64,000 nucleotides of DNA from Sphaerotilus microaerophilus. GTDB lineage: Bacteria > Pseudomonadota > Gammaproteobacteria > Burkholderiales > Burkholderiaceae_C. Within the stretch, counting starts at the first letter, position 1, and every line of letters starts with the position of its first letter. Positions 2-61,929 of the stretch are shown piece by piece. The stretch spans positions 682,001 through 746,000 of the forward strand of contig NZ_AP025730.1 of the NCBI RefSeq assembly GCF_023734135.1, in the 5' to 3' direction. A program made the translations under genes and the position numbers. The notes beneath the pieces are model-generated. The model worked only from the letters and a program-made list of their open reading frames with translations. It ran no database searches and was not told the origin of the DNA.

Positions 2-3000
2 ACTTCCCCATCCTCAGGGAACCCCTCTGCTGGCTCGAATGCAGGCATATCCGGCGATGGCGGAACCGGCAGTGCGGGCGGCACGTCTGCCGGCGGGCGG
101 GGCACGTCAGCTGCCGAGAACACGCCAGCAGTGATTCCGGCGGTAACGCTCGTCGCCCTGACAGCGTCCGTGGACGAACAGGTCGGCCCGATTCACTACG
201 TCCTGCGCCTTTCCGCGGCCACGACCCAGCCAGTGACCGTCACATTGAGGGTCGACTCTGGCGCCGCTGCCGGGCGTGTGGCTGACGGAACCTACCAAGT
301 GGTGGTCCAACCCGGCACGACGGAAGTGAGCTTCGACGTGCCGCTGCGGCCCGACACGGTGCGTGATGTCTCGGCCCCGGTCCAGGTCACGATCGTGGAT
401 GTCCTCAACGGCACTGTTGGGGTGGGCAGCGTCACCGTAGACCTGGTGGACAACCTGCCCATCGCAGGGGGCAGCTCCAGTGACTCTGTTGTCGGTGGTA
501 CCGGTGGTGACTCGGTCGACGGTGGATTGGGTGATGACAGTGTCGACGGTGGCGAAGGCAACGACAGCGTCTCGGGTGGAGCCGGCAACGACACGGCCCA
601 AGGTGGGTCGGGCGACGACAACGTCGACGGCGGCGAGGGTGACGACAGTGTCGGTGGTGGCGCTGGCCACGACACCGTGCAGGGTGGCACGGGCAATGAC
701 ACCGTGACCGGCGGCGACGACACCGGGTCGGATGATCTGGACGGCGGCGAAGGCGACGACAGCGTCTCGGGTGGCGCGGGCAACGACACGGCCCAGGGTG
801 GGTCGGGCGACGACAACGTCGACGGCGGTGCCGGTGACGACAGCGTCTCCGGCGGCAGCGGCGATGACACCGTGCAAGGTGGCACGGGCAACGACACCGT
901 GACCGGTGGCGACGACAGCGGGTCTGATGACCTGGATGGCGGCGAAGGCAGCGACAGCGTTTCCGGCGGAGCTGGCAACGACACGGCTGCAGGCGGCACC
1001 GGAGACGACAACGTTGACGGCGGCGAGGGTGACGACAGCGTTGGTGGCGGCACTGGCAACGACACCGTGCAGGGCGGCACGGGTAACGACACCGTGACGG
1101 GTGGCGACGATGCCGGCTCTGACGACCTGGATGGCGGCGAAGGCAACGACAGCGTTTCCGGCGGAGCTGGCAACGACACGGCTCAAGGTGGCTCAGGCGA
1201 CGACAACGTTGACGGCGGCGAGGGTGACGACAGCGTCGGTGGTGGCACCGGCAACGACACCGTGCAAGGCGGCACGGGCAACGACTCCGTGACGGGTGGC
1301 GACGACAGCGGCTCCGACGATGTGGACGGCGGCGAAGGCAGCGACAGCGTTGCCGGCGGAGCTGGCAACGACACGGCTGCAGGCGGCACCGGAGACGACA
1401 GCGTTGACGGCGGCGAGGGTGACGACAGTGTCGGTGGTGGCACTGGCAACGACACCGTGCATGGCGGCACGGGTAACGACACGGTGACCGGCGGTGACGA
1501 CAGCGGCTCCGACGATGTGGACGGCGGCGAAGGCAACGACAGCGTTTCCGGCGGAGCTGGCAACGACACGGCTGCAGGCGGCACGGGCGACGACAACGTT
1601 GACGGCGGCGAGGGTGACGACAGCGTCGGTGGTGGCGCCGGCAACGACACCGTGCAAGGTGGCACAGGCAACGACAGCGTCTCGGGTGGCGCGGGCAACG
1701 ACACGGCCCAGGGTGGGTCGGGCAACGACAACGTCGACGGCGGTGCCGGTGACGACAGCGTCTCCGGCGGCAGCGGCGATGACACCGTGCAAGGTGGCGC
1801 GGGCAACGACACCGTCACCGGTGGCGACGACGACAGCGACACCGGCGCGGACGACCTGGACGGCGGCGAAGGCAACGACTCGGTCAGCGGCGGCGCAGGG
1901 AACGACACGGCCCAGGGCGGCACGGGCGACGACAACGTCGACGGCGGCGAGGGGGATGACAGCGTCGGTGGTGGCACCGGCGACGACACCGTTCAAGGCG
2001 GATCGGGCAACGACACCGTGACGGGCGGTGACGACGCCGGCTCCGACGACCTGGACGGTGGCGAAGGCAACGACTCAGTCAGCGGTGGTGCCGGCAACGA
2101 CACGGCTGCAGGCGGCACGGGCGACGACAACGTTGACGGCGGCGAGGGTGACGACAGTGTCGGTGGCGGCACCGGCAACGACACCGTGCAAGGCGGCACG
2201 GGTAACGACACGGTGACCGGCGGCGACGACGCCGGCTCCGACGACCTGGACGGTGGCGAAGGCAACGACTCGGTCAGCGGCGGCGCAGGGAACGACACGG
2301 CCCAGGGCGGCACGGGCGACGACAACGTCGACGGCGGCGAAGGGGATGACAGCGTCGGTGGTGGCACCGGCAACGACACCGTCACCGGCGGCGACGACAG
2401 CGGGTCCGATGACCTGGATGGCGGCGAAGGCAACGACAGCGTTTCCGGCGGAGCTGGCAACGACACGGCCCAAGGTGGGTCGGGCGACGACAACGTTGAC
2501 GGCGGCGAGGGTGACGACAGCGTCGGTGGCGGCACCGGCAACGACACCGTGCAAGGCGGCACGGGTAACGACACGGTGACCGGCGGCGACGACGCCGGCT
2601 CCGACGACCTGGACGGTGGCGAAGGCAACGACTCGGTCAGCGGCGGCGCAGGGAACGACACGGCCCAGGGCGGCACGGGCGACGACAACGTCGACGGCGG
2701 CGAGGGTGACGACAGCGTCGGTGGTGGCGCCGGCAACGACACCGTGCAGGGTGGCGCGGGCAATGACACCGTCACCGGCGGTGACGACGCCGGCTCCGAC
2801 GACCTGGACGGTGGCGAAGGCAGCGACTCGGTCAGCGGTGGCGCCGGCAACGACACGGCCCAAGGTGGGTCGGGCGACGACAACGTTGACGGCGGTGAGG
2901 GTGACGACAGCGTCGGTGGTGGCACCGGCAACGACACCGTGCTGGGTGGCACGGGCAACGACACCGTGACCGGTGGCGACGACGACAGCGACACCGGCGC

Positions 3001-6000: not shown

Positions 6001-9000
6001 TGACGACAGCGTTTCCGGCGGTGCTGGCAACGACACGGCCCAGGGTGGGTCGGGCAACGACAACGTCGACGGCGGCGCCGGTGACGACAGCGTCTCCGGC
6101 GGCAGCGGCAACGACACCGTGCAAGGTGGTTCGGGCAACGACACCGTCACCGGTGGCGATGACGACAGCGACACCGGCTCGGACGACCTGGACGGCGGCG
6201 AAGGCAACGACTCGGTCAGCGGCGGCGCGGGCAACGACACGGCCCAAGGTGGGTCAGGCGACGACAACGTCGACGGCGGTGCCGGTGACGACAGCGTTGG
6301 TGGAGGCACCGGCAACGACACCGTGCAAGGTGGTTCTGGCAACGACACCGTCACTGGTGGCGACGACCAGACCGACACCGGGTCGGATGATCTGGACGGC
6401 GGCGAAGGCAACGACAGCGTCTCGGGTGGCGCGGGCAACGACACGGCCCAGGGTGGCTCAGGCGACGACAACGTCGACGGCGGTGCTGGTGACGACAGCG
6501 TCTCCGGCGGCAGCGGCGACGACACCGTGCAAGGTGGTTCTGGCAACGACACGCTCGATGGCGGTGCGGGGGATGACACGCTTCAGGGCGGAGACGGTGC
6601 AGACGAGATCAGCGGCGGTGAAGGCGACGATGTCATCGATCACTACGACGCTGCAGACGCACTGATCGACGGCGGTGCGGGCAACGACCGTCTGATCATT
6701 CGAGACGCCGTGGTGGACTTCGCCACTATCGACGACGCGACGGTGGTCGGCATTGAGCAACTGGACCTGCGTGCGTCGAGCGGTGTGAGCGGAAGCAATA
6801 TGGTGACGCTTGGTGTCAGCGACGTGCTGGCACTGGCTGGAGCGAGCGGCACGCTGACCGTGCTTGGCGATGCCGAAGATGCGCTGACCTTTGCCGACAC
6901 CTGGGTCGAAATGACCGCTCAGGTTGTTGACGGTGTCAGTTTCAGGGTCTTCGAGCGTGACGGACTCACCATTCGCGTCGCGGCGCACATGCAACTGAGC
7001 ACGGTCGCCGAAGGCGGCGCAGGCGACGACACGCTGGTAAGCGGATCCGACAACGACTCCCTGGGGGGCGGTGAAGGCAACGACTCGGTCGACGGCGGAG
7101 AGGGCAACGACACGGTTGCGGGCGGAGAAGGCAACGACTACGCGGGTGGTGGCTCGGGAGACGACACGGTGTCGGGCGAATCGGGCGACGACACGGTCGA
7201 TGGCGGCACCGGCAACGACGTGATCAGCGGCGGAGAAGGCAACGACACGACGCGTGGTGGAGACGGGGAAGACACCGTCGACGCGGGCGTTGGCGACGAC
7301 AGCGTGGAAGGCGCAGCGGGCAACGACAGCGTGGACGGCGGCCTGGGAGACGACATCGTCGACGGCGGAGAGGGCAACGACACGGTTGCGGGCGGAGAAG
7401 GCAACGACTACGCGGGTGGTGGCTCGGGAGACGACACGGTGTCGGGCGAATCGGGCGACGACACGGTCGATGGCGGCACCGGCAACGACGTGATCAGCGG
7501 CGGAGAAGGCAACGACACGACGCGTGGTGGAGACGGGGAAGACACCGTCGACGCGGGCGTTGGCGACGACAGCGTGGAAGGCGCAGCGGGCAACGACAGC
7601 GTGGACGGCGGCCTGGGAGACGACATCGTCGACGGCGGAGAGGGCAACGACACGGTTGCGGGCGGAGAAGGCAACGACTACGCGGGTGGTGGCTCGGGAG
7701 ACGACACGGTGTCGGGCGAATCGGGCGACGACACGGTCGATGGCGGCACCGGCAACGACGTGATCAGCGGCGGAGAAGGCAACGACACGACGCGTGGTGG
7801 AGACGGGGAAGACACCGTCGACGCGGGCGTTGGCGACGACAGCGTGGAAGGCGCAGCGGGCAACGACAGCGTGGACGGCGGCCTGGGAGACGACATCGTC
7901 GACGGCGGAGAGGGCAACGACACGGTTGCGGGCGGAGAAGGCAACGACTACGCGGGTGGTGGCTCGGGAGACGACACGGTGTCGGGCGAATCGGGCGACG
8001 ACACGGTCGATGGCGGCACCGGCAACGACGTGATCAGCGGCGGAGAAGGCAACGACACGACGCGTGGTGGAGACGGGGAAGACACCGTCGACGCGGGCGT
8101 TGGCGACGACAGCGTGGAAGGCGCAGCGGGCAACGACAGCGTGGACGGCGGCCTGGGAGACGACATCGTCGACGGCGGAGAGGGCAACGACACAGTGTCG
8201 GGCGAATCGGGCGACGACACGCTCGACGGCGGTACCGGCAACGACAGCCTGGACGGCGGCGCGGGCGACGACAGCGTCGATGGCGGCGAAGGCAGCGACA
8301 CCGCGCTGGGCGGTGCGGGTGACGACACCCTGACGGGCGGGGATGCCAACGACACGGGCGACGACAGCCTGGACGGTGGCGAAGGCAACGACTCCGTCAG
8401 CGGTGGCCAGGGCAACGACAGCCTGGGCGGTGGTGGCGGCAACGACACCCTGCTGGGTGGCGCGGGCACGGACACGCTCGACGGCGGTACCGGCAACGAC
8501 AGCCTGGACGGCGGCGCGGGCAACGACAGCCTGGGCGGTGGCACGGGCAACGACAACCTCGACGGCGGCGCGGGCAACGACAGCGTCGACGGCGGCGAAG
8601 GCAATGACACGGCCACCGGCGGTGCGGGGGACGACACCCTGACGGGCGGTGACGCCAACGACACGGGCGACGACAGCCTGGACGGTGGCGAAGGCAACGA
8701 CTCCGTCAGCGGCGGCCAGGGCAACGACACCCTGGTCGGCGGTGACGCCAACGACACCGGCAGCGACACGCTCGACGGCGGCGCAGGTGACGACAACGTT
8801 GGCGGCGGTGCCGGCAACGACAGCCTGGGCGGTGGCACGGGCAACGACAACCTCGACGGCGGCGCGGGCAACGACAGCGTCGACGGCGGCGAAGGCAGCG
8901 ACACCGCGCTGGGCGGTGCGGGCGACGACACCCTGACGGGCGGTGACGCCAACGACACGGGCGATGACAGCCTGGACGGCGGCGAAGGCAACGACTCCGT

Positions 9001-12000
9001 CAGCGGTGGCCAGGGCAACGACACCCTGGTCGGCGGTGACGCCAACGACACCGGCAGCGACACGCTCGACGGTGGCGCAGGTGACGACAGCGTTGGCGGC
9101 GGCGCGGGCAACGACAGCCTGGGCGGTGGCACGGGCAACGACAACCTCGACGGCGGCGCGGGCAACGACAGCGTCGACGGCGGCGAAGGCAGCGACACGG
9201 CCACCGGCGGTGCCGGTGACGACACCCTGACGGGCGGTGACGCCAACGACACGGGCGACGACAGCCTGGACGGTGGCGAAGGCAACGACTCCGTCAGCGG
9301 TGGCCAGGGCAACGACACCCTGGTCGGCGGTGACGCCAACGACACCGGCAGCGACACGCTCGACGGTGGCGCAGGTGACGACAGCGTTGGCGGCGGCGCG
9401 GGCAACGACAGCCTGGGCGGTGGCACGGGCAACGACAACCTCGACGGCGGCGCGGGCAACGACAGCGTCGACGGCGGCGAAGGCAATGACACGGCCACCG
9501 GCGGTGCGGGGGACGACACCCTGACGGGCGGTGACGCCAACGACACGGGCGACGACAGCCTGGACGGTGGCGAAGGCAACGACTCCGTCAGCGGCGGCCA
9601 GGGCAACGACACCCTGATCGGCGGTGACGCCAACGACACCGGCAGCGACACGCTCGACGGCGGCGCGGGTGACGACAGCGTTGGCGGCGGTGCCGGCAAC
9701 GACAGCCTGGGCGGTGGCACGGGCAACGACAACCTCGACGGCGGCGCGGGCAACGACAGCGTCGACGGCGGCGAAGGCAATGACACGGCCACCGGCGGTG
9801 CGGGGGACGACACCCTGACGGGCGGTGACGCCAACGACACGGGCGACGACAGCCTGGACGGTGGCGAAGGCAACGACTCCGTCAGCGGCGGCCAGGGCAA
9901 CGACACCCTGATCGGCGGTGACGCCAACGACACCGGCAGCGACACGCTCGACGGCGGCGCGGGTGACGACAGCGTTGGCGGCGGTGCCGGCAACGACAGC
10001 CTGGGCGGTGGCACGGGCAACGACACGCTCGACGGTGGCACCGGCAATGACAACCTGGATGGCGGCACGGGCAACGACAACCTCGACGGCGGCGCGGGCA
10101 ACGACAGCGTCGACGGCGGCGAAGGCAGCGACACCGCGCTGGGCGGTGCGGGCGACGACACCCTGACGGGCGGTGACGCCAACGACACGGGCGATGACAG
10201 CCTGGACGGCGGCGAAGGCAACGACTCCGTCAGCGGTGGCCAGGGCAACGACACCCTGGTCGGCGGTGACGCCAACGACACCGGCAGCGACACGCTCGAC
10301 GGTGGCGCAGGTGACGACAGCGTTGGCGGCGGCGCGGGCAACGACAGCCTGGGCGGTGGCACGGGCAACGACAACCTCGACGGCGGCGCGGGCAACGACA
10401 GCGTCGACGGCGGCGAAGGCAGCGACACGGCCACCGGCGGTGCCGGTGACGACACCCTGACGGGCGGTGACGCCAACGACACGGGCGACGACAGCCTGGA
10501 CGGTGGCGAAGGCAACGACTCCGTCAGCGGTGGCCAGGGCAACGACACCCTGGTCGGCGGTGACGCCAACGACACCGGCAGCGACACGCTCGACGGTGGC
10601 GCAGGTGACGACAGCGTTGGCGGCGGCGCGGGCAACGACAGCCTGGGCGGTGGCACGGGCAACGACAACCTCGACGGCGGCGCGGGCAACGACAGCGTCG
10701 ACGGCGGCGAAGGCAGCGACACCGCGCTGGGCGGTGCGGGCGACGACACCCTGACGGGCGGTGACGCCAACGACACGGGCGATGACAGCCTGGACGGCGG
10801 CGAAGGCAACGACTCCGTCAGCGGTGGCCAGGGCAACGACACCCTGGTCGGCGGTGACGCCAACGACACCGGCAGCGACACGCTCGACGGTGGCGCAGGT
10901 GACGACAGCGTTGGCGGCGGCGCGGGCAACGACAGCCTGGGCGGTGGCACGGGCAACGACAACCTCGACGGCGGCGCGGGCAACGACAGCGTCGACGGCG
11001 GCGAAGGCAATGACACGGCCACCGGCGGTGCGGGGGACGACACCCTGACGGGCGGTGACGCCAACGACACGGGCGACGACAGCCTGGACGGTGGCGAAGG
11101 CAACGACTCCGTCAGCGGCGGCCAGGGCAACGACACCCTGGTCGGCGGTGACGCCAACGACACCGGCAGCGACACGCTCGACGGCGGCGCAGGTGACGAC
11201 AACGTTGGCGGCGGTGCCGGCAACGACAGCCTGGGCGGTGGCACGGGCAACGACAACCTCGACGGCGGCGCGGGCAACGACAGCGTCGACGGCGGCGAAG
11301 GCAGCGACACCGCGCTGGGCGGTGCGGGCGACGACACCCTGACGGGCGGTGACGCCAACGACACGGGCGATGACAGCCTGGACGGCGGCGAAGGCAACGA
11401 CTCCGTCAGCGGTGGCCAGGGCAACGACACCCTGGTCGGCGGTGACGCCAACGACACCGGCAGCGACACGCTCGACGGTGGCGCAGGTGACGACAGCGTT
11501 GGCGGCGGCGCGGGCAACGACAGCCTGGGCGGTGGCACGGGCAACGACAACCTCGACGGCGGCGCGGGCAACGACAGCGTCGACGGCGGCGAAGGCAATG
11601 ACAAGGCCACCGGCGGTGCGGGGGACGACACCCTGACGGGCGGTGACGCCAACGACACGGGCGACGACAGCCTGGACGGTGGCGAAGGCAACGACTCCGT
11701 CAGCGGCGGCCAGGGCAACGACACCCTGGTCGGCGGTGACGCCAACGACACCGGCAGCGACACGCTCGACGGCGGCGCAGGTGACGACAACGTTGGCGGC
11801 GGTGCCGGCAACGACAGCGTCGACGGCGGCGAAGGCAGCGACACGGCCACCGGCGGTGCCGGTGACGACACCCTGACGGGCGGTGACGCCAACGACACGG
11901 GCGACGACAGCCTGGACGGTGGCGAAGGCAACGACTCCGTCAGCGGTGGCCAGGGCAACGACACCCTGGTCGGCGGTGACGCCAACGACACCGGCAGCGA

Positions 12001-15000
12001 CACGCTCGACGGTGGCGCAGGTGACGACAGCGTTGGCGGCGGCGCGGGCAACGACAGCCTGGGCGGTGGCACGGGCAACGACAACCTCGACGGCGGCGCG
12101 GGCAACGACAGCGTCGACGGCGGCGAAGGCAATGACACGGCCACCGGCGGTGCGGGGGACGACACCCTGACGGGCGGTGACGCCAACGACACGGGCGACG
12201 ACAGCCTGGACGGTGGCGAAGGCAACGACTCCGTCAGCGGCGGCCAGGGCAACGACACCCTGATCGGCGGTGACGCCAACGACACCGGCAGCGACACGCT
12301 CGACGGCGGCGCGGGTGACGACAGCGTTGGCGGCGGCGCCGGCAGCGACAGCCTGGGCGGTGGCACCGGCAACGACAACCTCGACGGCGGCGCGGGCAAC
12401 GACACGCTTGGCGGCGACGACGGCGACGACTTGCTCGAAGGCGGCGCTGGCACCGATTCGCTGCGCGGTGGTGCGGGCAATGACACCCTGGTGTTCGATG
12501 GCAGCGATGCGCTGATCGATGGGGGCGCGGGTGTCGACACCCTGCGCATCGATGCGGCGAGCCTGGACCTCCAGGCCGTCAGCGATGCGCTGCTGCGCAA
12601 CATCGAGGTGCTGGACCTGACCGCCGTGACGGCGCAGACGGTGCAACTCAAGCTGGCGGACGTGATCGCCATGTTGGATGGCGTCAACACCACGCTGACG
12701 GTGATCGGCGGGGCGGGTGATGCGCTGGTCTTCCGGGACGGCTGGTCGACGGCGGCCGATGTGGTGCGCGACGGTGTGACCTTCCACGTCTACACCAGCG
12801 GCGGCTACACGGTGGAAGTGCAGGCCGAGGTGAATGCCTCCATCTTCATCGAGGGCGGCAGCGGCCACGACTCGCTGGTCGGCGCCACGGGCGACGACTC
12901 CATCGTCGGTGCGGCGGGCAACGACACCCTGGTGGGCGACGCGGGACACGACACCATTGGGGGTGGTCTGGGCAATGACTCGGTCCTGGCGGGCGCCGGC
13001 AACGATTCGGTGTCCGGGGACGATGGTCACGACACCCTCCTGGGCGGTGACGGGAACGACTCGGTCCGCGGCGATGCCGGCAATGACTCGCTGCAGGGCG
13101 AGGCCGGCGACGACACCCTGCTGGGTGGCGCGGGCAATGACACGCTGGGCGGTGGCGCGGGGGCGGACAGCCTGGAAGGCAGTACCGGCAACGACAGCCT
13201 GGACGGCGGCGACGACAACGACCTGATCCATGGCGGCGATGCGGCCGACACGGTGAGCGGCGGTGCGCTGACACCGGACGACGACAGCATCAACGCCGGC
13301 GCTGGCGATGACACCGTGTTCGGCGGTGCCGGCAATGACACGGTGCGCGCGGGCAGCGGCAACGACTCGGTCGATGGCGGCAACGGCAACGACAGCCTGG
13401 CGGGCGAGGACGGTGACGACACGCTGGCGGGTTCCGCCGGGGACGACACCCTCGATGGCGGTGCGGGCCACGATGAATTGCGCGGCGGTGCCGGCAACGA
13501 CACGTTGACCGGCGGCCTGGGCAACGACCTGCTGGTGGCCGGCGAGTCCGGTGGCAGCGACAGCAACCAGCTGACCGGCGGTGCCGGTGATGACACCCTG
13601 ACCGGCAGCGGCGGCAACGACTCGCTCGACGCCGGCACAGGCAGTGACAGCGTGGCGGGTGGCGCGGGCAACGACACGCTGGTCTACGACGCGGCCGATG
13701 TCCTGATCGACGGCGGTGCAGGCATCGACACCCTGATCGTCAACGATGCCAACGTGGACTTCGGCGCCCTGGCCGCGGCGGGCCCGCTGAACGTGGGCAA
13801 CGTCGAGATCGTCACGCTGAATGGCAGCAGCGGCAGCCAGATCGACCTCACCGAGGATGCCGTGCTGGCGATGACCGCGTCGCCGCACGTCCTGTACGTC
13901 AACGGCGATGACCTGGACACCGTCAACCTGGTGGGCACCTGGGCGATCGACACCACCCCGGCCAACCAGGTCTCCGGCTACGTGACGTACGCCAGCACCG
14001 CCAATGACGCGGGTTCGACCGCGGTGCGGCTGTACATCCAGAACCAGGTCACCCTGGCCATCACCCAGATCGGCAATGACAACGCCAACCTGCTCAATGG
14101 CGGTCTGGCGGCGGACATCATCGAAGGCCACGGCGGCAACGACACCCTCAATGGCAATGACGGCTCCGACACCCTCATGGGTGGTGCCGGCAATGACGTG
14201 CTCGATGGCGGCGTGGGCATCGACACGGCCGACTACAGCGACGAGACAGGTGACCTGACGGTCAGCCTGGGTGCCCCGGGCAGCAGCACGGGCACCGACA
14301 CCGGCAGCGACAGCCTCAGCAACATCGAGAACCTGGTCGGCGGTGGCGGCAATGACCTGATCACCGGCGACGACAGCTTCAACCTGCTCGACGGCGGTGC
14401 CGGCAACGACACGATCCTGGCCGGCGGTGACGCCGACACCCTGGTCGGTGGCAGCGGTGCGGACCTGCTGCGCGGCGAGGGCGGCAACGACAAGCTGCGC
14501 GGCGGCGCCGGCAACGACACGCTGGACGGCGGCAGCGGCAACGACACCGCGGACTATGGCAGCGAGTCCAATGCCGTCACCGTGGACTTGGCTGGCGGCA
14601 CGGCCACCGATGGCAGCGGCACGACCGACACCCTGACCGACCTCGAGAACATCGCCGGTGGCAGTGGCAATGACGCGCTCAGCGGCAATGCCGGCGCCAA
14701 CCTGATCCAGGGCAACGCCGGTGACGACGTGATCAGCGGCGGTGCGGGCAACGACACCCTGCAGGGCGGTGCGGGCAGCGACACCCTGAGCTTCGCCGGC
14801 AGCAGCAGCGCCGTGGTGGTCAACCTGACCAATGCCGCGCTGACGCACAACGCGCTGTCGGTGGCCGCCTCCAGCGCCCGCTCGGGCAGCGAGGTGGACA
14901 CCCTGAGCGGCTTTGAGACCGTGGTCGGCGGCAACGCGGGCGACGCGCTCTATGGCAGCAGCGACGCCAACTTGCTGGATGGCGCCGCTGGTGCCGACCA

Positions 15001-21000: not shown

Positions 21001-24000
21001 CGGCTTCGCCGACTTCGTCGTCGGTGGCCCCGGCTATGTCAACTCGGTCACCACCGGCAGCTCCAGCCAGACCGACTACAGCGGCAGTGGCTACCTCATC
21101 TACGGCAAGGAGCAGGGCTGGTCCAACACCACCGTGGTCCAGCGTGACCATGTCAACCCGCTGCTGAGCAGCCTGTCGCCGAGCGACGACGCCAGCGGCG
21201 TGGCGGTCAACAGCAACCTGCAGCTGAACTTCAACGAGGGCGTGCAGTTCGGCAGCAGCGGCTTCGTCGGCCTGTACCGTGCGGGCAGTGACGTGCTGGT
21301 CGAGCGCTTCGACGTGGCCACCGGCATGGGCAACCTCGGCGGCCGGGCCTGGGTCAGCGGCTCCTCCGTGGTGGTCAACCCGGTCAACCCGCTGTCCTCC
21401 AGCACCGACTACTACGTCAAGGTGGATGCCGGCGCGGTCACCGACCTGAGCGGCAACCCCTTCGCCGGCATCAGCGACAGCACCGCGTGGAGCTTCACCA
21501 CCGGCAGCAACGGCGACAGCAGCTCGCCCAACCTGCGCGCGGCCTATCTGGAGGTGTTCGCCAACAGCAACACCACCTACGACGCGCAGCCGACGACCTA
21601 CGCCACCTACTACGGCACTCCTGCCAACCAGGGCGACATCAGCATGCTGTATGGCACGCTGACCAGCGGCGACATCTCTGCGCCGTACGCCTTCGACGCC
21701 AGCGACGTGCGCGCCAGCAACAACGTCGACATCTCGTCCACCGCCACCTCGGTGGACTACCGCAGCGAAGCGGACTTCAAGCTGTACTTCGCCTTCGACG
21801 AGGCGGTGCGCCCCTACGGCCAGATCCTCATCCGGCGGCCCGATGGCACGGTGGTCGAGAGCTTCGACCTGCAGACCGGCCGTGGCAGCCTGGGCGGCGG
21901 CATCAAGCCGACCAATGTCGACGAGTCGCGCCCGGACATCAACACCACCTCGGCGGCGCCGACCACCACCGACAGCACCGGCTTCGAGATCGACCCCGGC
22001 TTCACCTTCGCCCGCAACACCACCTACACGGTGGAACTGGTGGGCATCAAGGACGGCTCGGGCAACAGCCTCGACGCGGCCGATGCCAGCTTCACCTTCA
22101 CCACCACCTCCGCGGCCGACACCCTGGCGCCGCAGCTGGTGGCCTACAACCTCGGCAGCGCCTCCACGGCCTTCACCAACAGCACCAGCAATGGTGCGAC
22201 CAACGTGTCGGTGGAGTCGGACATCGTCTTCAAGGCGTCCGAGTCGCTCGTGCCGGGTGCCAGCGGCAGCGTGTCGATCAAGCTGTACAACAGCTACGCC
22301 GGCGCTGCCGTCGAGACCTTCTCGTGGAGCAGTGCGCCCACGGCCGGTGCCGATGGCTCCTACACCTTCACCGGCAGCCTGGGGGGCACGATGACCCTCA
22401 GTGGCCAGACGGTGCGCATCGACCCGGGCCAGAACCTGGCCTACGGTACCGCGTACTCGATCGCTGCCGCCGGCCTGAGCGACCCCTCGGGCAATGCGCT
22501 GGTGCTCAACACCAACACCGGCCACTACTTCACCACCGTCGCCCAGACCACCACGGTGCAGACGCTCAGCGGCAACGCCGTGCAGCACCCGACCACGGTC
22601 GGCCTGGACGACAACATCGTCATCCGCTTCGCGGAGTCGGTCGAGGCGGGCACGAACAGTGCCGGCACCCAGAGCATCCAGCTCTACAACCGCTCGGGCA
22701 CCCTCATCGAGAGCTTCGACGTGGCGACCGGCCTTGGCAACCACGGCGGCAGCCTGAGCTTCCAGGGCACGGATGTCACGCTGAACCCGGGCCAGACCCT
22801 GGCCTATGCCACGGGCTACTACCTGACGGTGAGCAGCCAGGCGATCCGCGCGGCGCATGAGAACGTCAGCGAGGACGCTGGCAACGCCGACGGCAATGCG
22901 GCCAGCACCCGCTACTACACCGGCGCCGGCATGTCCGGCTCCGGCTCGCCACTGTACTTCGCCACCGAGGCGGGCACGCAGATCGACCCGGGTTGGGTCC
23001 AGACCCCCTCCATCACCGCTGACGGGGTGCTCAACGCGGGCAGCTACGTGGGCAACATCTGGAATGGCAGCGGCTACAGCGCGCAATTCCCGAACGGCAC
23101 CACCAACTACAACCTTCAGCCGGGCGAGTGGACCGGGATGGAAGTCTCGGCCGCGGGTGACGTGGATGGCGACGGTATCCAGGACTTCATCATCGGCAGC
23201 CCGATGAAGGTCTGGGATCCGACGCTCAACCCCAGCGACAACGGCGACAACTACGTCTACGGCAAGTACTACCTGGTCTTCGGCCAGGCCGGCAACACCA
23301 GCACGACGCTCAACATCGCCAACCTGGCCGCCGCTGGTCGCGTGGTCCAGTTCTACGGCCCGAATACCAACTGGCTCAAGGGGGTCGTGGAGTTCGGTGA
23401 CCTGAACAAGGACGGCTACGACGACCTGCTGATCACCGCCGGAGGCAACGCCCCGGACACCGACCTCTCCAACAGCGACAACCTGGCCAGCAACGATGGT
23501 GACACCGACGCCGGTTCGGCCTTCGTGGTGTATGGCCAGGCCCGCTCGGCCTGGGTCTCCAGCCTCAACGTGACCCAGCTGGGCCAGCAGGGCCTGGAAA
23601 TCACCGGCGGCCTGCCGCAGGAGCAGCTCGGCTTCTCGGCCGCTTCCGGCGACTTCAACGGCGACGGCACCGTCGACCTGTTCTTCGGCATGCCCCGCAA
23701 CGACCGCGACGGTTTTGCCTCGGGCGAGGGCTTCGTCATCAACGGGGGCGACTTCAGCAGCTCGCTGATGAGCGTGGGCACCGATCAGGCCGACACGTTG
23801 CTGGGCGACTTCGGTGCCGACCGGCTCGCCGGCCAGCAGGGCAACGACCAGATCTACGGCCTGGGCGGCGCCGACATCCTGCGCGGGGGCCAGGGCAACG
23901 ACACGATCGGCCTGACCGATCTCGACTTCATCCTGCTCGATGGCGGCACCGGCACCGACACGCTGAAGTTCATCGGCCACGGCTTCGACCTCGACCTCAC

Positions 24001-27000
24001 CGGTTATGCGGGGGCCAGCCTGCGCAGCTTCGAGCGCATCGACCTGACCGGCGACGGTGACAACGCCATCACGCTGAACTACCGCGAGGCGATCTACCTG
24101 CTTGAGCGCGAGCTCTCCACCGCCTACGGCACCCAGACCCAGCTGACGATCGACGGCAACGTCGGTGACCGCGTGACGCTGGAAGGCCCGTGGTCCCTGA
24201 TCAACTCGGACAACACCTACAACTACTACGCCCTCGACGGCATCTTCGTCGCGGTCGATGCGGACATCACCCAGGCCACACCGACCTGGACCATCCCCTA
24301 CCGCGGCGCGACGATCGATTTCAACGCCTCGGCGCTGCCTGACGGCCTGCGTGTCGATGCGGTCGACTTCAGCATCGGCAGCAACCAGCAGCCCACGACC
24401 AGCTATGTCGAGGCGCTGGGCGACATCAACCACGATGGCTATGCCGACTTCGCGGTGGCGGACAACGACGTCGCAGGGACCAACCTGCCCTACGTCTACC
24501 GCGAGGCGGGCCAGTGGGAGTACTACTACTTCGATGACCCGAACGCGTCAGTGCCATTCATCGGCGGCCAGACGCTCTACACCTCGAGCGCCGGCCACTA
24601 CCGCGCAAGCAATGAGTGGACCTACGTCGGCAACACCGGCGCGGTGTACGTCGTCTACGGCCAGGCCGGCGGCTTGGGCAGTACCGATTTCAACCTGATC
24701 GGTACGGGCCAGGAGACCGATGTGATCCGCCTGGTCAGCGGCGCCGATCCGGGCGACGAGTTTGCCGACAGCATGGGCAGCCTGGGCGACGTGGACGGTG
24801 ACGGCCAGGCCGACTTCGTCATCAGCGCGTGGAACACGGCGCGCAGCTACACCTTCACCGAGGGCGGTGAGCTGAGCTGGGCCGACCCGACCGGTGCCAA
24901 CGGCGTCAACGCGGCCTACAACGGCTGGTGGGTCGGTGCCGAAGCCGACATGGCCCCGGGCAGCGCTTCCACCTCGCCCTGGGCCTACTCGTACACGGCG
25001 GACAGCTGGGCCTACAACCGCGCTGGGCGCCAGTACTTCTTCCTGGGCGGCAACCAGATGCTGGTCGACCAGGTCTCGGGTGCGATCACCGATACCTCCG
25101 TCAGCAACAACGCCAGCGGCCTGCAGGGCACCAGCACCCAACTGCCCAGCAGCTGGGATGGCGGCGTGGACCTGGTGTCCGACCTGCCGGACAACGGCGC
25201 CACCGCCGGCCAGCAGACCACGTACACCTTCACCGCCAACTCGACCACGGCCTCGCTGACCACCACCGGCCAGACCGCGTGGAGCCCGATCGCGCTGGGT
25301 GACGTCAACGGCGATGGCTACGACGACTTCATGGACAGCGCCGGCAGCGGCGTCGTCCACTTCGGCCAGCCGCTCGACAGCGGCATCGACCAGACGATCA
25401 ACTGGTCCACCATCGACCTGGGTGGCTTCAGCCGCGCCAGCGCCGCTGGCGACCTCAACGGCGACGGCTATGACGACCTGGTGCTGGGGTACAGCAACTT
25501 CAGCTACGTCGTGTTCGGCCAGGCCGGCGCCTGGACGGGTGTGCCGACCTTCAACACCAACAGCGCACTGAACGGCACCTTCGCGGCCAATGGGGGGACC
25601 CCGGCCATCGCGCGCATCGACGCCGAGTCCGGCTACACCGGCCAGCAAGGGGTCTACACCCGCCTGGGCGACATCAACGGCGACGGCTATGACGACCTGC
25701 TGGTGGCCGGTAACCCGGCCGACAACTACAACGCCAAGTCCAACGGCGCCGCCTATGTGGTGTTCGGCGGGGCCAATGTGGCCGGGGCCGGCAACGACAT
25801 CTGGGACGCCAATGTCAGCCTGGGCAACCTGGCTGCCCGCGGCCAGGGCTTCCGCATCACCGGCGCGATCGACGGTGACCTGTTGACCAATGCCAGCTGG
25901 ACCGGCGTTGGCGACGTCAACGGCGACGGCTACGACGACTTCATCATCCAGTCCAGCGGCGAGCTCGAAGGGGCCGCCGCGAACAACGCCACCTCGGGTT
26001 CCGGTTCGTCCTACCTCTTCCTGGGGCAGGGCAGTGCAGCCTGGCGCAACGTCGACACGCTGGAGGTGCAGGACTACGGCATCCAGATGCTGGGAACCGG
26101 CAACGGCGAGTGGACGGCGTTGGGCGACGTGGACGGCGACGGCTTCGACGACATGTCCCTCGTGAGCAACACGGGTGCACAGATCTTCTACGGTTCAACC
26201 GCGCTGTCGTCCTACAAGGACGCCACCTGGTCCGGCCTGGGCAATGGCCAGACCACCGTGCAGGTGGTCCAGGGCACCAGCGGGGCCACCCTGACCGGCC
26301 ACCGCGGCAACAGCACCGTGGCCCTGATCGGCCAGGACCGCCTGATCGGCAATGCCGGCAACGACACGCTGGTCAGCGACGGCGGTGCCGACGTGCTCAA
26401 CGGTGGTGCCGGCAACGACCTGCTGCAGGTCGTCGACAATCACTTCTTCCAGCTCGATGGCGGTTCCGGCGTCGACACGCTGGAGCTCCTGGGCTCGATG
26501 ACGCTGGACCTCACGGCCGTGGGCAATACCCGGGTCGCCAACATCGAGGTGGTGCAGCTGGGCAGCGGCAACCAGACCTTGACCCTGAGCGCCACGGACG
26601 TGCTGCGCATGACCGGGCAGACCAACACCACGGTCGCAGATGCCCGCTTCCAGCGCGGCAACGTGCTCGTGGTCAACAGCAGCGCAGGCAGCGACGCCCT
26701 GGTGCTCAACGGGGCCGACTGGAGCAGCACCGGCGTCACCACCGCGGTGGCGGGCAGCGCTGCCCTCTTCACGGTCTACCAGGCCAACGGCGGCAACCTC
26801 TTCGTCGTCACCAACCTGGTCCCGACCACCGGCACTGCGGGAGGCGCCCTGGCGGGTACCGCCGCAGGCGAGGTGCTCTACGGCGGCTCGGGTGCCGACA
26901 CGGTCACGGCCAACGCCGGCAACGACACGGTCTACGCCGGCGAAGGTGCTGACGCGGTGACCGGCGATGACGGCAACGATTCGCTGGTCGGCGGACTGGG

Positions 27001-30000
27001 CAACGACACCCTGGGTGGCGGCAACGGCGACGACACCTTCATCGCCGGCCGTGGCAACGACAGCGTGGACGGCGGCGCCGGCAACGACATGCTGGACTAC
27101 CGCAGCGCCAACGAAGGCCTGGCGATCACCTACAGCGCGGCGGGAGCCGGCACGGTCAGCGGCACGCAGACCGGCACCGACGGCTTCACGGCGGTCGAGA
27201 CCGTCTACGGCTCCAACCGCGCCGACACCATCATCGGCAGCGCCGGCGACGATGTGCTGACCTGGCATGCCGGAGCCGGCGGCAACGACAGCTTCGTCGG
27301 CGGCAGCGGCAACGACGCGCTGGACTACAGCGGCGTCGACTCGGCGGTGGTCGTCACCTTCACGGGGGCTACCTCGGGCACGGCGCGCACGGCCAACCAG
27401 GGCACCGACAGCTTCAGCGGCATCGAGACCGTCATCGGCGGCGGCTACAACGACGTCTTCGTCAACGCCGACGGCGCCGTGGTGGTCCAGGGCGGTGCGG
27501 GTACCGACACGCTGGATTACAGCGCCAACGGCAGCGGCGTCACGGTGCTCTTCACCGCCGATGGCACGGGCACCGTGGGTGGTAGCGTCGTGGCCAGCTT
27601 CACCTCCGTGGAGTCGGTCATCGGTGGCAGTGGCGCGGACTCGCTGACCGGTGCGGCCGGGACCCAATACTTCTCCGGCGGTGCCGGTAACGACACCGTC
27701 GACGGCGGGGCTGGCGGCGACAAGCTCGACTACACCGGTGTGAGTGCCGGCCTGAGCATCACCTACGGCGCGGCAGGCGGTGGCACGGTCACGGGCAGCA
27801 GCACAGGCACCGACAGCTTCAGCAACATCGAGACCGTCACCGGCGGTGGCGGCAACGACCAGGCCATCGGCGGCAGCGGTGCCGAGTACTTCGAGGGCGG
27901 TGCGGGCAACGACACGCTGCGCGGTGGTGCTGGCAACGACACCTTCTTCGGTGGCACGGGTACCGACATCGCCGACTACAGCGACGCGACCACGGCGATC
28001 AACGCCAACGTGTACTTCCAGTACGGTGGCTCGATCACGATCACCAGCGATGTTGGCGCGGCGGATCAGTTCTACGACGTGGACGGCATCATCGTCGGTT
28101 CGGGCAACGATGCAGTCAACATCTACAGCGGCAGCGGTTCGCTCGATGGTCGTGGCGGTCACGACTCGCTGAGTGGCGGCAGCGGCGACGACACCCTGAT
28201 CGGCGGTGCCGGCAACGACACCCTGGTCGGCAACAACGGCAATGACTGGTTCTACGGCGGCGCGGGCAATGACAGCTTCAATGCCGGTGGCGGCAACGAC
28301 GTGCTGGACTACCGTGGTGTTTCCGGCAACCTGAACGTCAACCTGTCCACCGGGGTCATCAGCTCCGACGGCGAAGCGGGCGCGGACGCCGTCACGACGG
28401 GGTCGATGGAGGCCGTGCTGGGCGGTTCGGGCAACGACAGCATCGTCGGCAGCCTCTACGCCGAGACGATCAGCGGCGGTGCCGGCAACGACACCATCGA
28501 CGGCGGCGCCGACAACGACACCGCCATGTACGCGACGGTGACCAACGCCCTCAACGTCAACCTCGCCACCGGCGTCGCCACCGGCGAGGGCACCGACACG
28601 CTGAGCAACATGGAGAACGTGGTCGCCGGCTTCGACAATGACCGCATCACCGGCAACAGCAGCAACAACGTGCTGTATGGCAGCGAGGGCAACGACACGC
28701 TGGAGGGTGGCAACGGCAATGACGCCCTGTACGGTGGTGATGGCAACGACGTCTTCGTGATGAACGACGACGCGGCGATGGACTCGATCTACGGCGGCAA
28801 CGGCTTCGACCTCCTCGACTTCTCGGCCGTCACCTACGACATCCGCTATTCGCAGGGGCGCGGTGACGCATTCCGCCTGTACAACCGCGATGAGTGGGTG
28901 CGCTTCCTGCTCGACATCCCGGGTAGCAACGACCCGGGCCAGGGGCGTGACGACGACTGGAACGGCAGTACGTCCAGCCTCTACGACGGCCACGACGACT
29001 GGTACAGCGGCATCGAGGGCATGATCGCCGGCAGCGGCAACGACTACATCTACATCGACGCGGGTGGCCAGGACGTCTACAACCCGGGCGAGCGCGACGG
29101 CTACCTCGATGGTGGGGCCGGCAATGACACCCTGCTCGGCCATGACGGCCGCGACACCCTGATCGGCGGCAGCGGCAATGACTCGCTCGACGGCAACACC
29201 GGCGACGACACCCTGATTGGCGGCGCCGGCAACGACACCCTCATCGGCAATGGCGGCAGCGACTGGGCCGACTACAGCGGCGCCGCGGCCGCCATCACGG
29301 CCGACCTGTCGCTGGCCAGCAACCAGGTCACTGCCGACGGCGATGCGGGCATCGACCACCTGAGCGGTGTGGAAGGCCTCATCGGCAGCGGACTTGCAGA
29401 CAGCATCAAGGGCAGTACCGGCGCTGACAGCCTGTATGGCGGCCTGGGCAACGACACCCTGGACGGCCACTCCGGCAACGACACGCTGGACTACAGCCGC
29501 CAGTCGACCGCGGTCAGCATCGACGTCGCTGCGGGCAGCGCCAACAGCGGCGCCGGCAATGTCGACACCATCAGCAACTTCGAGGCCTATGTCGGCGGTA
29601 GCGGCAATGACAGCATCGTCGGTGCCAGTGCCACAGCGGTCAACGAGACCATGAGCGGCGGTGCTGGCCACGACACCCTGTCGGGTGGCGACGGTGCTGA
29701 CTCCCTGCTGGGCGGCGTGGGCAACGACTCCCTGCTCGGCGGTGCCGGCAACGACACCCTGGTGGGGGGCCTGGGCAACGACGCGCTGGACGGCGGCGCC
29801 GGTACGGCCGACGTGCTGGACCTGACGCCGGCCACTGCCGCCATGGTGGTGGACCTGACCGCGGGCACCTCCACTGGCGAAGGCAGCGACACGGTCACCG
29901 GCATTGAAGTGGTGTGGGGCGGCAGTGGCTCCGACACCCTGACCGGCAGCACCGGCAACGACAGCCTGATCGGCAATGCCGGGCGCGACGTGCTTGCCGG

Positions 30001-33000
30001 TGGCGACGGCCAGGACACCCTGGACGGCGGGAACGCCAACGACTCGATCAATGGCGGCGCGGGCAATGACCTGGCCTACGGCGGCAACGACCAGGACACC
30101 GTCCTCGGCGGTGCCGGCGTGGACTCGCTGTACGGCGGTGAGGGCCTGGACTCGATCGACGGCGGCGACGACAACGACCTGCTGTACGGCGAGAACGGCA
30201 ACGACACCCTGATGGGTGGCGCCGGTGCCGATACGCTGGACGGTGGCTCGGGTTCCGACCTGATCCGCGGCGGTGCAGGCAACGACGTCTTCAACCAGTC
30301 CACGGAATCCGACCGCCTGCTGGGCGAGGCGGGGGATGACCTCTTCAACGTGATCGCCCTGACCGACAACGGCAGCTTCGAGCTGGACATCGACGGCGGC
30401 GACGGGGTCGACACAGTCAGCCTGAACGCTGGCGGCAGCTACGACTTCCGGGCCACGACCCAGGTCCGCCTGGCCAATGTGGAAATGCTGCGCATGGCCA
30501 CCACCAACCAGACGGTGGCCCTGGACAACACCAACGTGCGCACCTTCGCGGCCACCGGCAATGCGGCGGTCGACAACGCCAGCTACGGCGCGGCCAGCGG
30601 CAAGGCGCTGCTGGTGGTGGATGCGAGCAGCACCAGTGACCGCCTGCGCCTGTTCGGCGAGGGCTGGTTGGCGACCGGTGACAGCACCACGGTGCTGGGT
30701 GGCGGCAGCAGCTATGCCATCTACCGCTTCCGTGACGAGAACATCTATGTCGCCTGCAACACGGTGGTGGTGGTGGTCGACGGCGCGGGTAGCGACTCGA
30801 TGGTCGGCACCGCTGCGGCAGACAGCCTGGATGGCGGCGCCGGAGCCGACACCATCATGGCGGGTCTCGGCAACGACACCGTCTCCGGTGGCCTGGGCAA
30901 CGATGTCATGGACGGTGGTCTCGGCATCGACCTGCTGACCTTTGCGGGCACCAGCTCGCCGATCCACCTCGACCTGTCGCTGAGCACCGCGCAGGACACG
31001 GGCCTGGGCACCGACACCTTCACGGGCTTCGAGATGGTCCAGGGTGGTACGGGCACCGATTCGCTGATGGGCGGCTCCGCCGACGACACCCTGTGGGGTG
31101 GCGCGGGCTCCGACACGCTGGGTGGCAGCGCGGGTGCCGATTCGCTGATGGGCGAGTCGGGCCGCGATCTGGTCGACGGCGGTGACGGCAACGACATCCT
31201 GTACGGTGGCGACGATGCCGACACGCTGCAGGGCGGCGCCGGCGACGATCGCCTCTACGGCGAGAACGGCACCGATGCCCTGCTGGGCGGCGACGGCAAT
31301 GACTCGCTGTGGGGTGGCAATGACAACGACACCCTCCAGGGTGATGCCGGCATCGACCAGCTCTATGGCGAGGAAGGCAGCGACCTGCTGCTGGGCGGCC
31401 TGGGCAACGACACCCTCGATGGCGGCAACGGCAACGACACCCTGATGGGGGGTGGCGACAACGACAGCCTGCAGGGAAGCAATGGCAACGACCTGGTGCA
31501 GGGCGATGCCGGTGACGACACCCTGGACGCCGGTGCCGGCAACGACACCGTGCAGGGTGGCGATGGCAACGACCTGATCTACGGCACCAGCGGCAGCAAC
31601 CTGCTGCAGGGTGGCGCGGGCAATGACACCATCAACGGGGGCAGCCAGAACGACACCATCGCCGGCGGGCTCGGCAACGATTCGCTGGTGGGCAATGGCG
31701 GCTACGACGTGCTCGACATGTCGGCCAGCAGCACGGCGATGAACTTCGACATGTCGGCCGGCTGGCCCGGCACGATCACCGATGCCACCCTGGGCACCGA
31801 CACGATCAGTGGCTTCGAGGGGATCATCGGTGGCTCGGCCAATGACACGATCACCGGCAGCAGCGGTGCCGACATCATTGGTGGCGGCGTCGGCAACGAC
31901 AGCCTGACCGGCGGTGCGGGGCTGGATACGCTGGACTTCAGCAACGCCACCCGCTCCCTGAGTGTGGACCTGAGTCTGAACCGCACCAGCGCGGTGAGCG
32001 TTGGCGACGGCCAGAGCGGGACCGACAGCGTCGTCGGCTTCGAGAACGTCAACGGCGGCTCGGCCAGCGACTGGCTGCAGGGCTCACTCGACGCCAACGT
32101 GCTGCTGGGCAACGACGGCTCCGACATCCTGCTGGGCCTCGATGGCAACGACTCGCTCGACGGCGGCCTGGGCAACGACAGCCTGGACGGCGGCACTGGC
32201 AACGACACGCTGCTGGGCGGTGACGGCGTCGACAGCCTGCAGGGCGGCACTGGCAACGACAACCTGCAGGGCGGTGCCGGCGCAGACAGCTTCAGCGGCG
32301 GCGCGGGCCAGGACACCTTCTGGGGCGGCGATGGCGACGACGTGTTCTACGGCGAAGCCGACAGCTACCAGGACCGGTACTACGGTGAAGCCGGCTTCGA
32401 CGTCCTGAACTACCAGGCCATCACCGTCGACATCAACTTCCAGACCGGCAATGGCTTCTACGCGGGCTATGGCGGTGACCTGTGGTTCACCGTCGCCGGC
32501 CAGACCCAGTACTTCAACAACGTGGAGGGCCTGATCGGCGGTCAGGGCAACGACTACCTGAGGAACAACCACGGCGTCGCAGCCTACATGGACGGCTACC
32601 TCGGCAACGACACCCTGTACGGCCAGAACGCCAACGACACCCTGCTGGGCGGCGTGGGCGAGGACTCGGTCGACGGCGGCAACGGCAACGATTCGCTGCT
32701 GGGTGGCGATGGCAACGACAGCCTGTACGGCAGCTATGGCTCCGACATCCAGCTGGGCGGCGCCGGCAACGACGTCATCGCCGGCAGCTACGGTGACGAC
32801 TACCTGGACGGCGGCGCCGGCATCGACGCGCTGGTGCTGTGGGATGCGACCCAGGCGGTCTCCATCGACCTGAACACCAGCTGGCAGGGCACGCTGACCT
32901 TCAGCAACATCGGCACCGACACCGTGCGCAACTTCGAGGGCGTGGTCGGCAGCAATGGCAACTACGCCGACTCGATCACCGGCACCTCGGGCAGCGACAT

Positions 33001-58722: not shown

Positions 58723-58887
58723 CTGCGTGCTATCCTTGCTGCCGTTGTGCCGATCCCGCCAGTGCCGTTCCCGGCCGGCCGGACCCACCACGGCAACCAC
58801 ACCGGGAGACCGGCATCGACGAGCGTGCGCAGGCGTGTTGCGCCCCGTCGCGGCCCACGTGCCACACAGGACAACAGGACCCTTGCG

Positions 58888-61800: not shown

Positions 61801-61929
61801 CCGGCGGGCAAGGCCGCCACCCGGCCGATGGCCGGCAAGCCCTGTCCCGAGTGCGGCAACGCCACCATGATCCACAAGGACGGGTGCGACTTCTGCACCA
61901 GCTGCGGCTACGTCGGCGCCTGCGGCTGA
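58888..61929 (+). CDS. nrdJ: Class II (B12-dependent) ribonucleotide reductase
   Basis: 1013 residues from MNELLGQDM, chosen for AGGA 8 nt upstream and the lack of coding character before it. It reduces ribonucleotides using adenosylcobalamin and so needs no oxygen. Seen: first redox Cys C108 (INCFVQP), the radical-site motif NPCAE (311-315), C323-C325 (YGCCCLGS) for the second redox Cys, and IAPTGTISL. The C-terminal third has two related TSCPD-like domains (about 705-805 and 825-940) and then a zinc ribbon (C986, C989, C1003, C1006, with C1000 and C1012 near by). Two NrdR boxes precede it; apt follows after 13 nt. Confidence 0.95.

Follow-up and report, generated by a model that had tools for sequence, protein, structure and literature searches.

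The 64,000-nucleotide stretch of DNA analyzed here from the sheath-forming sludge bacterium Sphaerotilus microaerophilus (hereafter the window; positions 682,001 to 746,000 of contig NZ_AP025730.1) opens inside a giant RTX gene, which is followed by genes for a type I secretion ATP-binding cassette (ABC) transporter, an HlyD-family membrane fusion protein, a TolC-family outer membrane channel and two glycosyltransferases. The frame of the giant gene is intact and is no artefact, its domain order is shared with a co-linear relative in another taxonomic order, and the operon is a conserved unit. We consider it likely that this locus serves to produce, export and probably decorate a single giant extracellular protein, either a Ca2+-dependent surface adhesin or a cell-envelope scaffold.

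The giant frame and its conserved operon

One stop-free frame, ending in TGA, runs through positions 2 to 35440 of the window and is open at the window edge, as the initial annotation had reported; from stop to stop it spans 12,254 codons. The upstream search proposed in that annotation located the N-terminus. From an ATG at chromosome position 680850 the protein has 12,196 aa (12,201 aa from an alternative ATG five codons earlier), a mass of 1.174 MDa, an isoelectric point of 4.05, one cysteine, 14.5 % Asp and 22 % Gly. It contains 482 strict GGxGxDxUx matches, whereas 20 shuffles of its residues averaged 6.2 and never exceeded 10, so that the description of an RTX protein above 1 MDa with hundreds of Ca2+-type nonapeptides also stands. 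The genome comprises 6,058,019 bases in two contigs and is 99.99 % complete and 0.26 % contaminated. The published genome of S. microaerophilus FB-5 (6.06 Mbp, 99.99 %, 0.26 %, a chromosome and one plasmid) was assembled with Flye from PacBio HiFi reads (PMC11087309), and with high probability the genome analyzed here is that of this strain. Together with a longest exact repeat of 836 nt in the gene, this amounts in effect to the long-read check suggested in the initial annotation.

Frame length alone is weak evidence in GC-rich repeats, since the same DNA holds an antisense frame of 4,360 codons (window 6458-19540, reverse strand), most likely a shadow of these repeats. The giant frame is regarded as genuine because of its orthologue and because of the ratio of replacement to synonymous change (pN/pS) between its repeat units. 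For unit pairs at least 75 % identical in protein, this ratio was 0.22 (25 units) and 0.19 (13 units); synonymous change exceeds replacement change, and the units are under purifying selection.

Searches with the ABC transporter covered 299 genomes of the family (E 1e-80), 369 of the class (E 1e-115) and 398 of the phylum (E 1e-130), the genome itself included and the samples overlapping; these are samples in which only three to six candidates were scored per genome, so misses are possible. Besides the genome's own, one relative exceeded 60 % identity. It is found in genome G367, which belongs to a different order from Sphaerotilus; the second of the two genomes of that order in the set (58 % complete) gave no match. 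Other relatives reached 48 and 43 % (phylum) or 32-39 % (20 family genomes). The G367 contig (34,493 bases) carries the giant, ABC, HlyD, TolC and two glycosyltransferase genes in the same order, the five downstream genes being 44 to 63 % identical to ours (Table 1). Its giant frame has at least 8,401 codons and is interrupted by the contig end. Residues 4395-7350 align to it at 58 % identity and 7359-12060 at 48 %, while the C-terminus is matched in a further overlapping piece (37 %), and the co-linear stretch amounts to about 7,650 residues. Fourteen G367 copies of a module that interrupts the RTX stretches (cap module A), found in the first two rounds of an iterated hidden Markov model (HMM), pair in order with copies 2-15 here. 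When the matching was reversed, 13 of the 14 copies picked the same partner, the last copy being the exception; later rounds added weaker RTX-linked matches in both proteins (as many as 36 and 37), including a full-length one at 5552. The GC content at third codon positions was 0.48 in G367 versus 0.87 here, and recent direct transfer is therefore not indicated.

Within the genus, where every candidate was scored, all 12 other genomes, two of which are incomplete (83 % and 68 %), were negative both for the N-terminal part of the giant protein (E 1e-3) and for its central part (E 1e-10). Both vertical loss and an older acquisition of the gene are compatible with this distribution. The ABC transporter gave three weak relatives in a search of genome contigs and no plasmid match at E 1e-100; the central part of the giant protein gave ten weak plasmid records and matched no viral contig. 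Absence from the VIA-align family list was not counted as exclusion. We rejected the ABC relatives of 32-39 % identity as representatives of the same system: in the upstream stretches examined for 13 of the 20 family genomes (two of them short, 4,750 and 10,900 bases), no listed frame of at least 250 aa had more than one strict RTX motif. The 48 and 43 % relatives, in genomes G685 and G819, were rejected as well because neither stands in an operon of this kind; the RTX frame of 1,421 codons found in G685 is a separate one.

The ABC gene starts 5 nt 3' of the giant-gene stop, and the genes of the operon are separated by overlaps or by gaps of at most 40 nt. A cognate ABC-HlyD-TolC set thus adjoins the giant gene and is kept in G367, where the second glycosyltransferase shows the highest identity of the five downstream genes. 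The ABC transporter is devoid of the N-terminal part corresponding to positions 1-135 of the LssB model. On the 5' side of the giant gene lie genes for a 7TMR-DISM histidine kinase and an OmpR-type regulator, the latter ending 286 nt before the giant start. A promoter scan returned no site.

Repeat arrays, cap modules and propellers

Whether nonapeptides make up most of the protein, as had been claimed, depends on the counting rule. Overall, a loose motif assigns 45 % of the residues to them (621 copies) and in-phase runs 38 % (513 copies); between residues 501 and 4500 the share is 69-89 % in 15 of 16 bins of 250 residues (45 % in bin 2501-2750). Units of 65/68, 90 and 98 residues prevail in the first third, and two cap-free arrays together hold 348 in-phase nonapeptides N-terminal to 14 of the 15 cap modules. 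The initial annotation had also envisaged a micrometre-scale molecule. By simple arithmetic, the in-phase nonapeptides would extend to about 0.12 µm as a beta-roll and the whole chain to 0.33 µm at most, and a length of 4.4 µm would apply only to the unfolded chain. The protein has 368 N-x-S/T sequons, but as the RTX motif itself can generate them, they carry no weight here.

Several elements had been missed in the initial annotation, namely two seven-blade propellers, the cap modules, an N-terminal FecR-like region, the two conserved glycosyltransferases and the upstream two-component system. Each propeller consists of seven FG-GAP blades with one Ca2+ motif per blade, as is characteristic of integrin-type propellers, and both orthologues have 7+7 motifs. 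The first propeller is split by Ig-like domains. In G367 its counterpart has a Laminin_G_3 (laminin-G/concanavalin-like) domain between blades 3 and 4 (111.3 bits; L077:15789-16406, reverse strand), which is absent from the window protein. A co-linear orthologue in another order, 14 matched caps and 7+7 blades together indicate that the architecture is under selection. Propeller 2 gave no match to solved structures at E 0.01, and single-sequence AlphaFold2 produced no usable fold for it, with a predicted local distance difference test (pLDDT) score of only 33. The cap profile matched 24 chains of solved structures, the best of which covers only the first, nonapeptide-like third of the profile.

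The N-terminal 540 residues are non-repetitive and include a FecR-like domain (24.3 bits versus a Pfam cut-off of 24). This region was found in 6 of the 299 family genomes at E 1e-3, its own included and the other five weak, and had one match among solved structures (E 0.57). At the opposite end, no NCBIfam model of a type I C-terminal secretion signal was among the eight matches in window 33500-35437; the C-terminal cap is also present in G367. A tandem beta-sandwich extender region is absent, and Pfam at E 0.001 gives only RTX repeats in window 2-20002. The beta-sandwich-type domains present are one weak extender-like domain and four Big_5 domains, the latter confined to propeller 1. A toxin was considered and rejected, as no toxin or pore-forming effector domain exceeded its cut-off in the pieces of the protein scanned; below threshold, FG-GAP repeats drew a match to TcdB_toxin_midN (13 bits, cut-off 24.8) and nonapeptides one to RTX_toxin NF033943 (143.9 bits, cut-off 1000).

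Table 1. Features of the giant RTX gene and its operon (window positions unless stated otherwise; identities refer to G367)
Feature	Position	Strand	Basis
First 384 residues of giant protein	chromosome 680850-682001 (L009:18850-20000), 5' of window	+	frame extension
Giant RTX gene, residues 385-12,196	2..35440	+	stop-free frame
Single Ig/Calx-beta-like domain resembling LapA extender	143..361	+	PF20579 17.6 bits, below cut-off 27, E 0.005 (weak)
RTX array 1, cap-free, 190 in-phase nonapeptides, 65/68-residue higher-order units	467..6640	+	repeat analysis; PF00353, 69 stretches in window 2-7000
Cap module A copy 1 of 15	6659..7015	+	iterated HMM
RTX array 2, cap-free, 158 in-phase nonapeptides	7067..12493	+	90-residue unit x4 (~7080-8204); 98-residue units (~8471-11733)
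RTX stretches interrupted by cap modules A, copies 2-11 of 15	12509..20272	+	each the best match of a G367 module, same order
FG-GAP propeller 1, seven blades, DxxxDG-type Ca2+ motifs, split after blade 4	20306..23809 (approximate)	+	PF01839, 4 stretches before insert and 3 after; seven motifs
Four Big_5 Ig-like domains between blades 4 and 5 of propeller 1	21146..23090 (approximate)	+	PF13205, 4 stretches in window 21101-23098
Cap module A copy 12	23930..24292	+	iterated HMM
FG-GAP propeller 2, seven blades	24356..26254 (approximate)	+	PF01839, 7 stretches; seven motifs
Cap module A copy 13	26447..26842	+	iterated HMM
C-terminal RTX region with second interspersed module type	26843..35047	+	includes cap module A copy 14
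Cap module A copy 14	30383-30787	+	iterated HMM
Cap module A copy 15, end of protein	35048..35437	+	iterated HMM; AlphaFold2 pLDDT 86.5, predicted TM-score (pTM) 0.83 on residues 12043-12196
Type I secretion ABC transporter, 634 aa	35446..37350	+	TIGR03375 451.1 bits (cut-off 693.1), model 136-692; 61 % identity
HlyD-family membrane fusion protein	37347..38654	+	TIGR01843 356.7 bits, above cut-off; 54 %
TolC-family outer membrane channel	38695..40101	+	PF02321 155.1 bits; TIGR01844 172.1 bits, below cut-off; 44 %
Glycosyltransferase 1 (Glycos_transf_1)	40101..41768	+	46 %
Glycosyltransferase 2 (Glyco_trans_4_3)	41800..43056	+	63 %

Regarding the surroundings, a subtilase with an I9 propeptide is encoded about 7.5 kb upstream of the giant gene (L009:9617-11293, reverse strand). 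A tRNA search of the window and an Rfam search of both the window and the upstream locus L009 were negative. Further downstream, window 58747-61929 (forward strand) encodes an adenosylcobalamin-dependent ribonucleotide reductase (TIGR02504, 594.8 bits); vitamin B12 enhanced the growth of FB-5 (PMC11087309). The second contig (30.8 kb, L070) has a conjugative-plasmid backbone with a TraI/MobA(P) relaxase and TrfA (under its best match), and a plasmid of Aminobacter sp. MSH1 matches 63 % of the first 20 kb of this contig at 100.0 % identity.

A probable surface adhesin or scaffold, and the alternatives

RTX chains are described as unfolded inside the cell, exported C-terminus first and folding on meeting Ca2+ (PMC6891781). 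For the giant protein, secretion, Ca2+-dependent folding, glycosylation, regulation, surface location and binding are predicted from sequence. The chain would stay unfolded in the Ca2+-poor cytosol, exit C-terminus first via the co-encoded ABC-HlyD-TolC channel and fold outside as Ca2+ occupies hundreds of nonapeptide sites, with the cap modules closing and nucleating successive beta-rolls. Roughly the first third would thereby become a long Ca2+-loaded beta-roll rod. Binding would take place at the two propellers, the first of which is split to project its Ig-like domains (in G367, also the laminin-G/lectin-like domain). The giant protein, or a glycan held by it, is the most likely substrate of the two conserved glycosyltransferases, and the upstream two-component system most likely turns the gene on. 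Split domains projecting a binding domain mark ligand-binding regions of RTX adhesins (PMC12077191). The Ig insert of propeller 1 and the lectin-like insert of G367 fit this rule, and a surface adhesin or scaffold is therefore favoured. That the protein is a dominant surface or matrix component, as initially proposed, goes further than these sequence data.

A possible but less probable alternative is a secreted Ca2+-binding matrix protein, not anchored to the cell, that would cross-link exopolysaccharide in a biofilm or floc as CabA does, a Ca2+-binding protein from a biofilm operon of Vibrio vulnificus (PMC4584020). The acidic, Ca2+-motif-rich composition, the tight linkage to two glycosyltransferases in both genomes and the retention model NF033682, unmatched at E 0.1, are all consistent with such a role. 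However, propellers and a split Ig insert resemble a binding head more than a plain gel former, and the non-repetitive N-terminal region could act as an anchor.

It is doubtful that the protein is a LapA-type adhesin, with an N-terminal plug retained in the TolC channel and release by LapG under LapD control. The genome does encode a LapD-like protein (NF045673, 388.8 bits, under the cut-off of 1020) and a LapG-like protein (PF06035, 52.5 bits, above cut-off), two di-alanine [TPA]AAG sites lie within the first 480 residues (at 257 and 472), and a short GD-rich motif of the FecR-like N-terminal region recurs in the genome's own Lap adhesin, within the retention-like region of that protein (E 0.077). 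Yet the sole PF06035 match in the genome, at 4.097 Mb, lies beside LapD and another adhesin, 3.4 Mb off, and neither LapG nor LapD was among the scanned neighbours of the giant gene. The lack of a retention model match (although the genome's own Lap adhesin itself scores only 26.2 bits against a cut-off of 50), of tandem beta-sandwich extenders and of the N-terminal part of the LssB model in the ABC transporter also argues against this control. A LapG-controlled adhesin was thus rejected as first choice, there being no retention model match and LapG and LapD being located elsewhere. The separate Lap system (about 4.087-4.099 Mb; L072, L022) consists of LapD, LapG and a VCBS/cadherin-type adhesin (read as two pieces) whose retention module is weak and which has a type I secretion C-terminus.

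Improbable, too, is an S-layer-like or sheath coat protein tiling the surface like the RTX-based RsaA of Caulobacter: FB-5 sheaths are described as undetected by transmission or scanning electron microscopy and visible only by scanning probe microscopy (PMC11087309). A modular chain of 12,000 residues with two propellers is also unlike a lattice subunit.

Least credible by far is an error of assembly or annotation, in which repeats were collapsed or expanded or a GC-rich frame arose by chance, because four 90-residue units without a single nucleotide difference over the 85 codons compared, exact repeats of up to 836 nt (short relative to typical HiFi reads) and antisense shadow frames are outweighed by the orthologous frame, the pN/pS of about 0.2, main unit lengths that are multiples of 3, so that a copy-number error keeps the frame, and the HiFi assembly of FB-5. 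Orthologue and pN/pS rule it out for the frame, the exact copy number in arrays 1 and 2 lying outside that verdict. Repeat-rich giant bacterial genes invite doubts about assembly, which the co-linear orthologue answers here.

Known giant proteins, calcium and the sheath

Giant RTX proteins are already a known kind, and larger ones are in print. To place the present one among the very largest bacterial proteins was fair, yet it is no record: Cag_0614 and Cag_0616 of Chlorobium chlorochromatii have 36,805 and 20,646 aa. They are likewise giant, likened to RTX-family adhesins and rich in repeated Ca2+-binding domains, but about three and 1.7 times larger, and are set apart by their description as symbiosis-specific and located in a genomic island (PMC4053972). 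The beta-roll-based arm predicted for the giant protein differs from the beta-sandwich arm of RTX adhesins studied so far. With LapA, MpAFP (MpIBP; 1.5 MDa, PMC3492233) and AhLap it has in common predicted type I secretion, Ca2+ motifs, a C-terminal RTX region and binding domains arising from split domains (PMC7493085, PMC12077191). On the one hand, those proteins owe their length to tandem beta-sandwich extenders plus a short RTX block, and carry lectin or von Willebrand factor A heads. On the other hand, the giant protein owes its length to RTX arrays, has propellers in place of such heads and matches no retention model; tandem extenders, which it lacks, have been called the defining feature of biofilm RTX adhesins (PMC7493085).

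Bacterial integrin-type propellers also have seven FG-GAP blades with a Ca2+ motif each, some reported sequences having 14 signatures (PMC3192720), but here two full blade sets stand inside a 1.17 MDa RTX chain and the first is split by Ig-like domains. BapP, a propeller-bearing Ca2+-dependent adhesin, has 1,600 aa (PMC12153261). Canonical RTX proteins share the nonapeptide beta-rolls, capping elements and type I export, although their nonapeptide count ranges from about 4 to above 50, with six to eight per block (PMC6891781), as compared with 500-600 here, 190 + 158 of them in two cap-free arrays, and no toxin or enzyme domain above the Pfam cut-off in the pieces scanned. The protein was undescribed in the literature surveyed by title and abstract opening (giant, RTX, FG-GAP, sheath and Sphaerotilus subjects; partial coverage).

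Tentatively, and with no more than a modest chance of being right, the giant protein may be a Ca2+-responsive organiser of the sheath or of cell-cell cohesion in the filaments of S. microaerophilus. FB-5 sheath formation is reported as not particularly stable without calcium, unlike that of other known Sphaerotilus species; CaCO3 promotes filamentation, and colonies switch back and forth between a rough form with sheaths and a smooth form mostly without them (PMC11087309). Since FB-5 differs from its genus mates in this need for calcium and the central part of the protein was found in none of the 12 other genus genomes, the protein may stabilise the sheath. The two cap-free arrays could behave as a rod or spring set by calcium, compact with Ca2+ bound and stretching to micrometres once it is lost, and the split propellers could hold a glycan to whose synthesis or attachment the two linked glycosyltransferases contribute. 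Three reports weigh against this idea: Leptothrix cholodnii filaments likewise break up without Ca2+, the available source text making no mention of RTX (PMC8264430); its sheath fibrils are joined by disulphide bonding (PMC13386937), while the giant protein has a single cysteine; and the Sphaerotilus-type sheath is mainly carbohydrate (PMC11087309).

The giant gene is the longest RTX frame in the genome among 150 of 199 matches listed. Elsewhere on the chromosome (1484748-1495875, L023), neighbouring RTX proteins of 1,959 and 1,682 aa with identical C-terminal 60 residues are encoded 3' of HlyD and ABC genes, and a 466-aa protein at 5.878 Mb has a C-terminal end similar to theirs.

The two glycosyltransferases of the conserved operon deserve to be counted as part of the system, and the folding and load-bearing of a roll of about 190 nonapeptides without caps pose a physical question that can be addressed on fragments. 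If the sheath proposal is true, it would explain why the sheath of S. microaerophilus is unstable without calcium in comparison with other members of the genus, gain or loss of giant-protein expression would account for the switching between rough and smooth colonies, and the protein would represent a new architectural class of giant type I-secreted proteins that derive their length from beta-roll instead of beta-sandwich repeats. The genes of sheath formation are, according to one source, poorly understood (PMC13386937); should the giant protein prove to be linked to the calcium-dependent sheath, it would provide a protein handle on how sheaths form.
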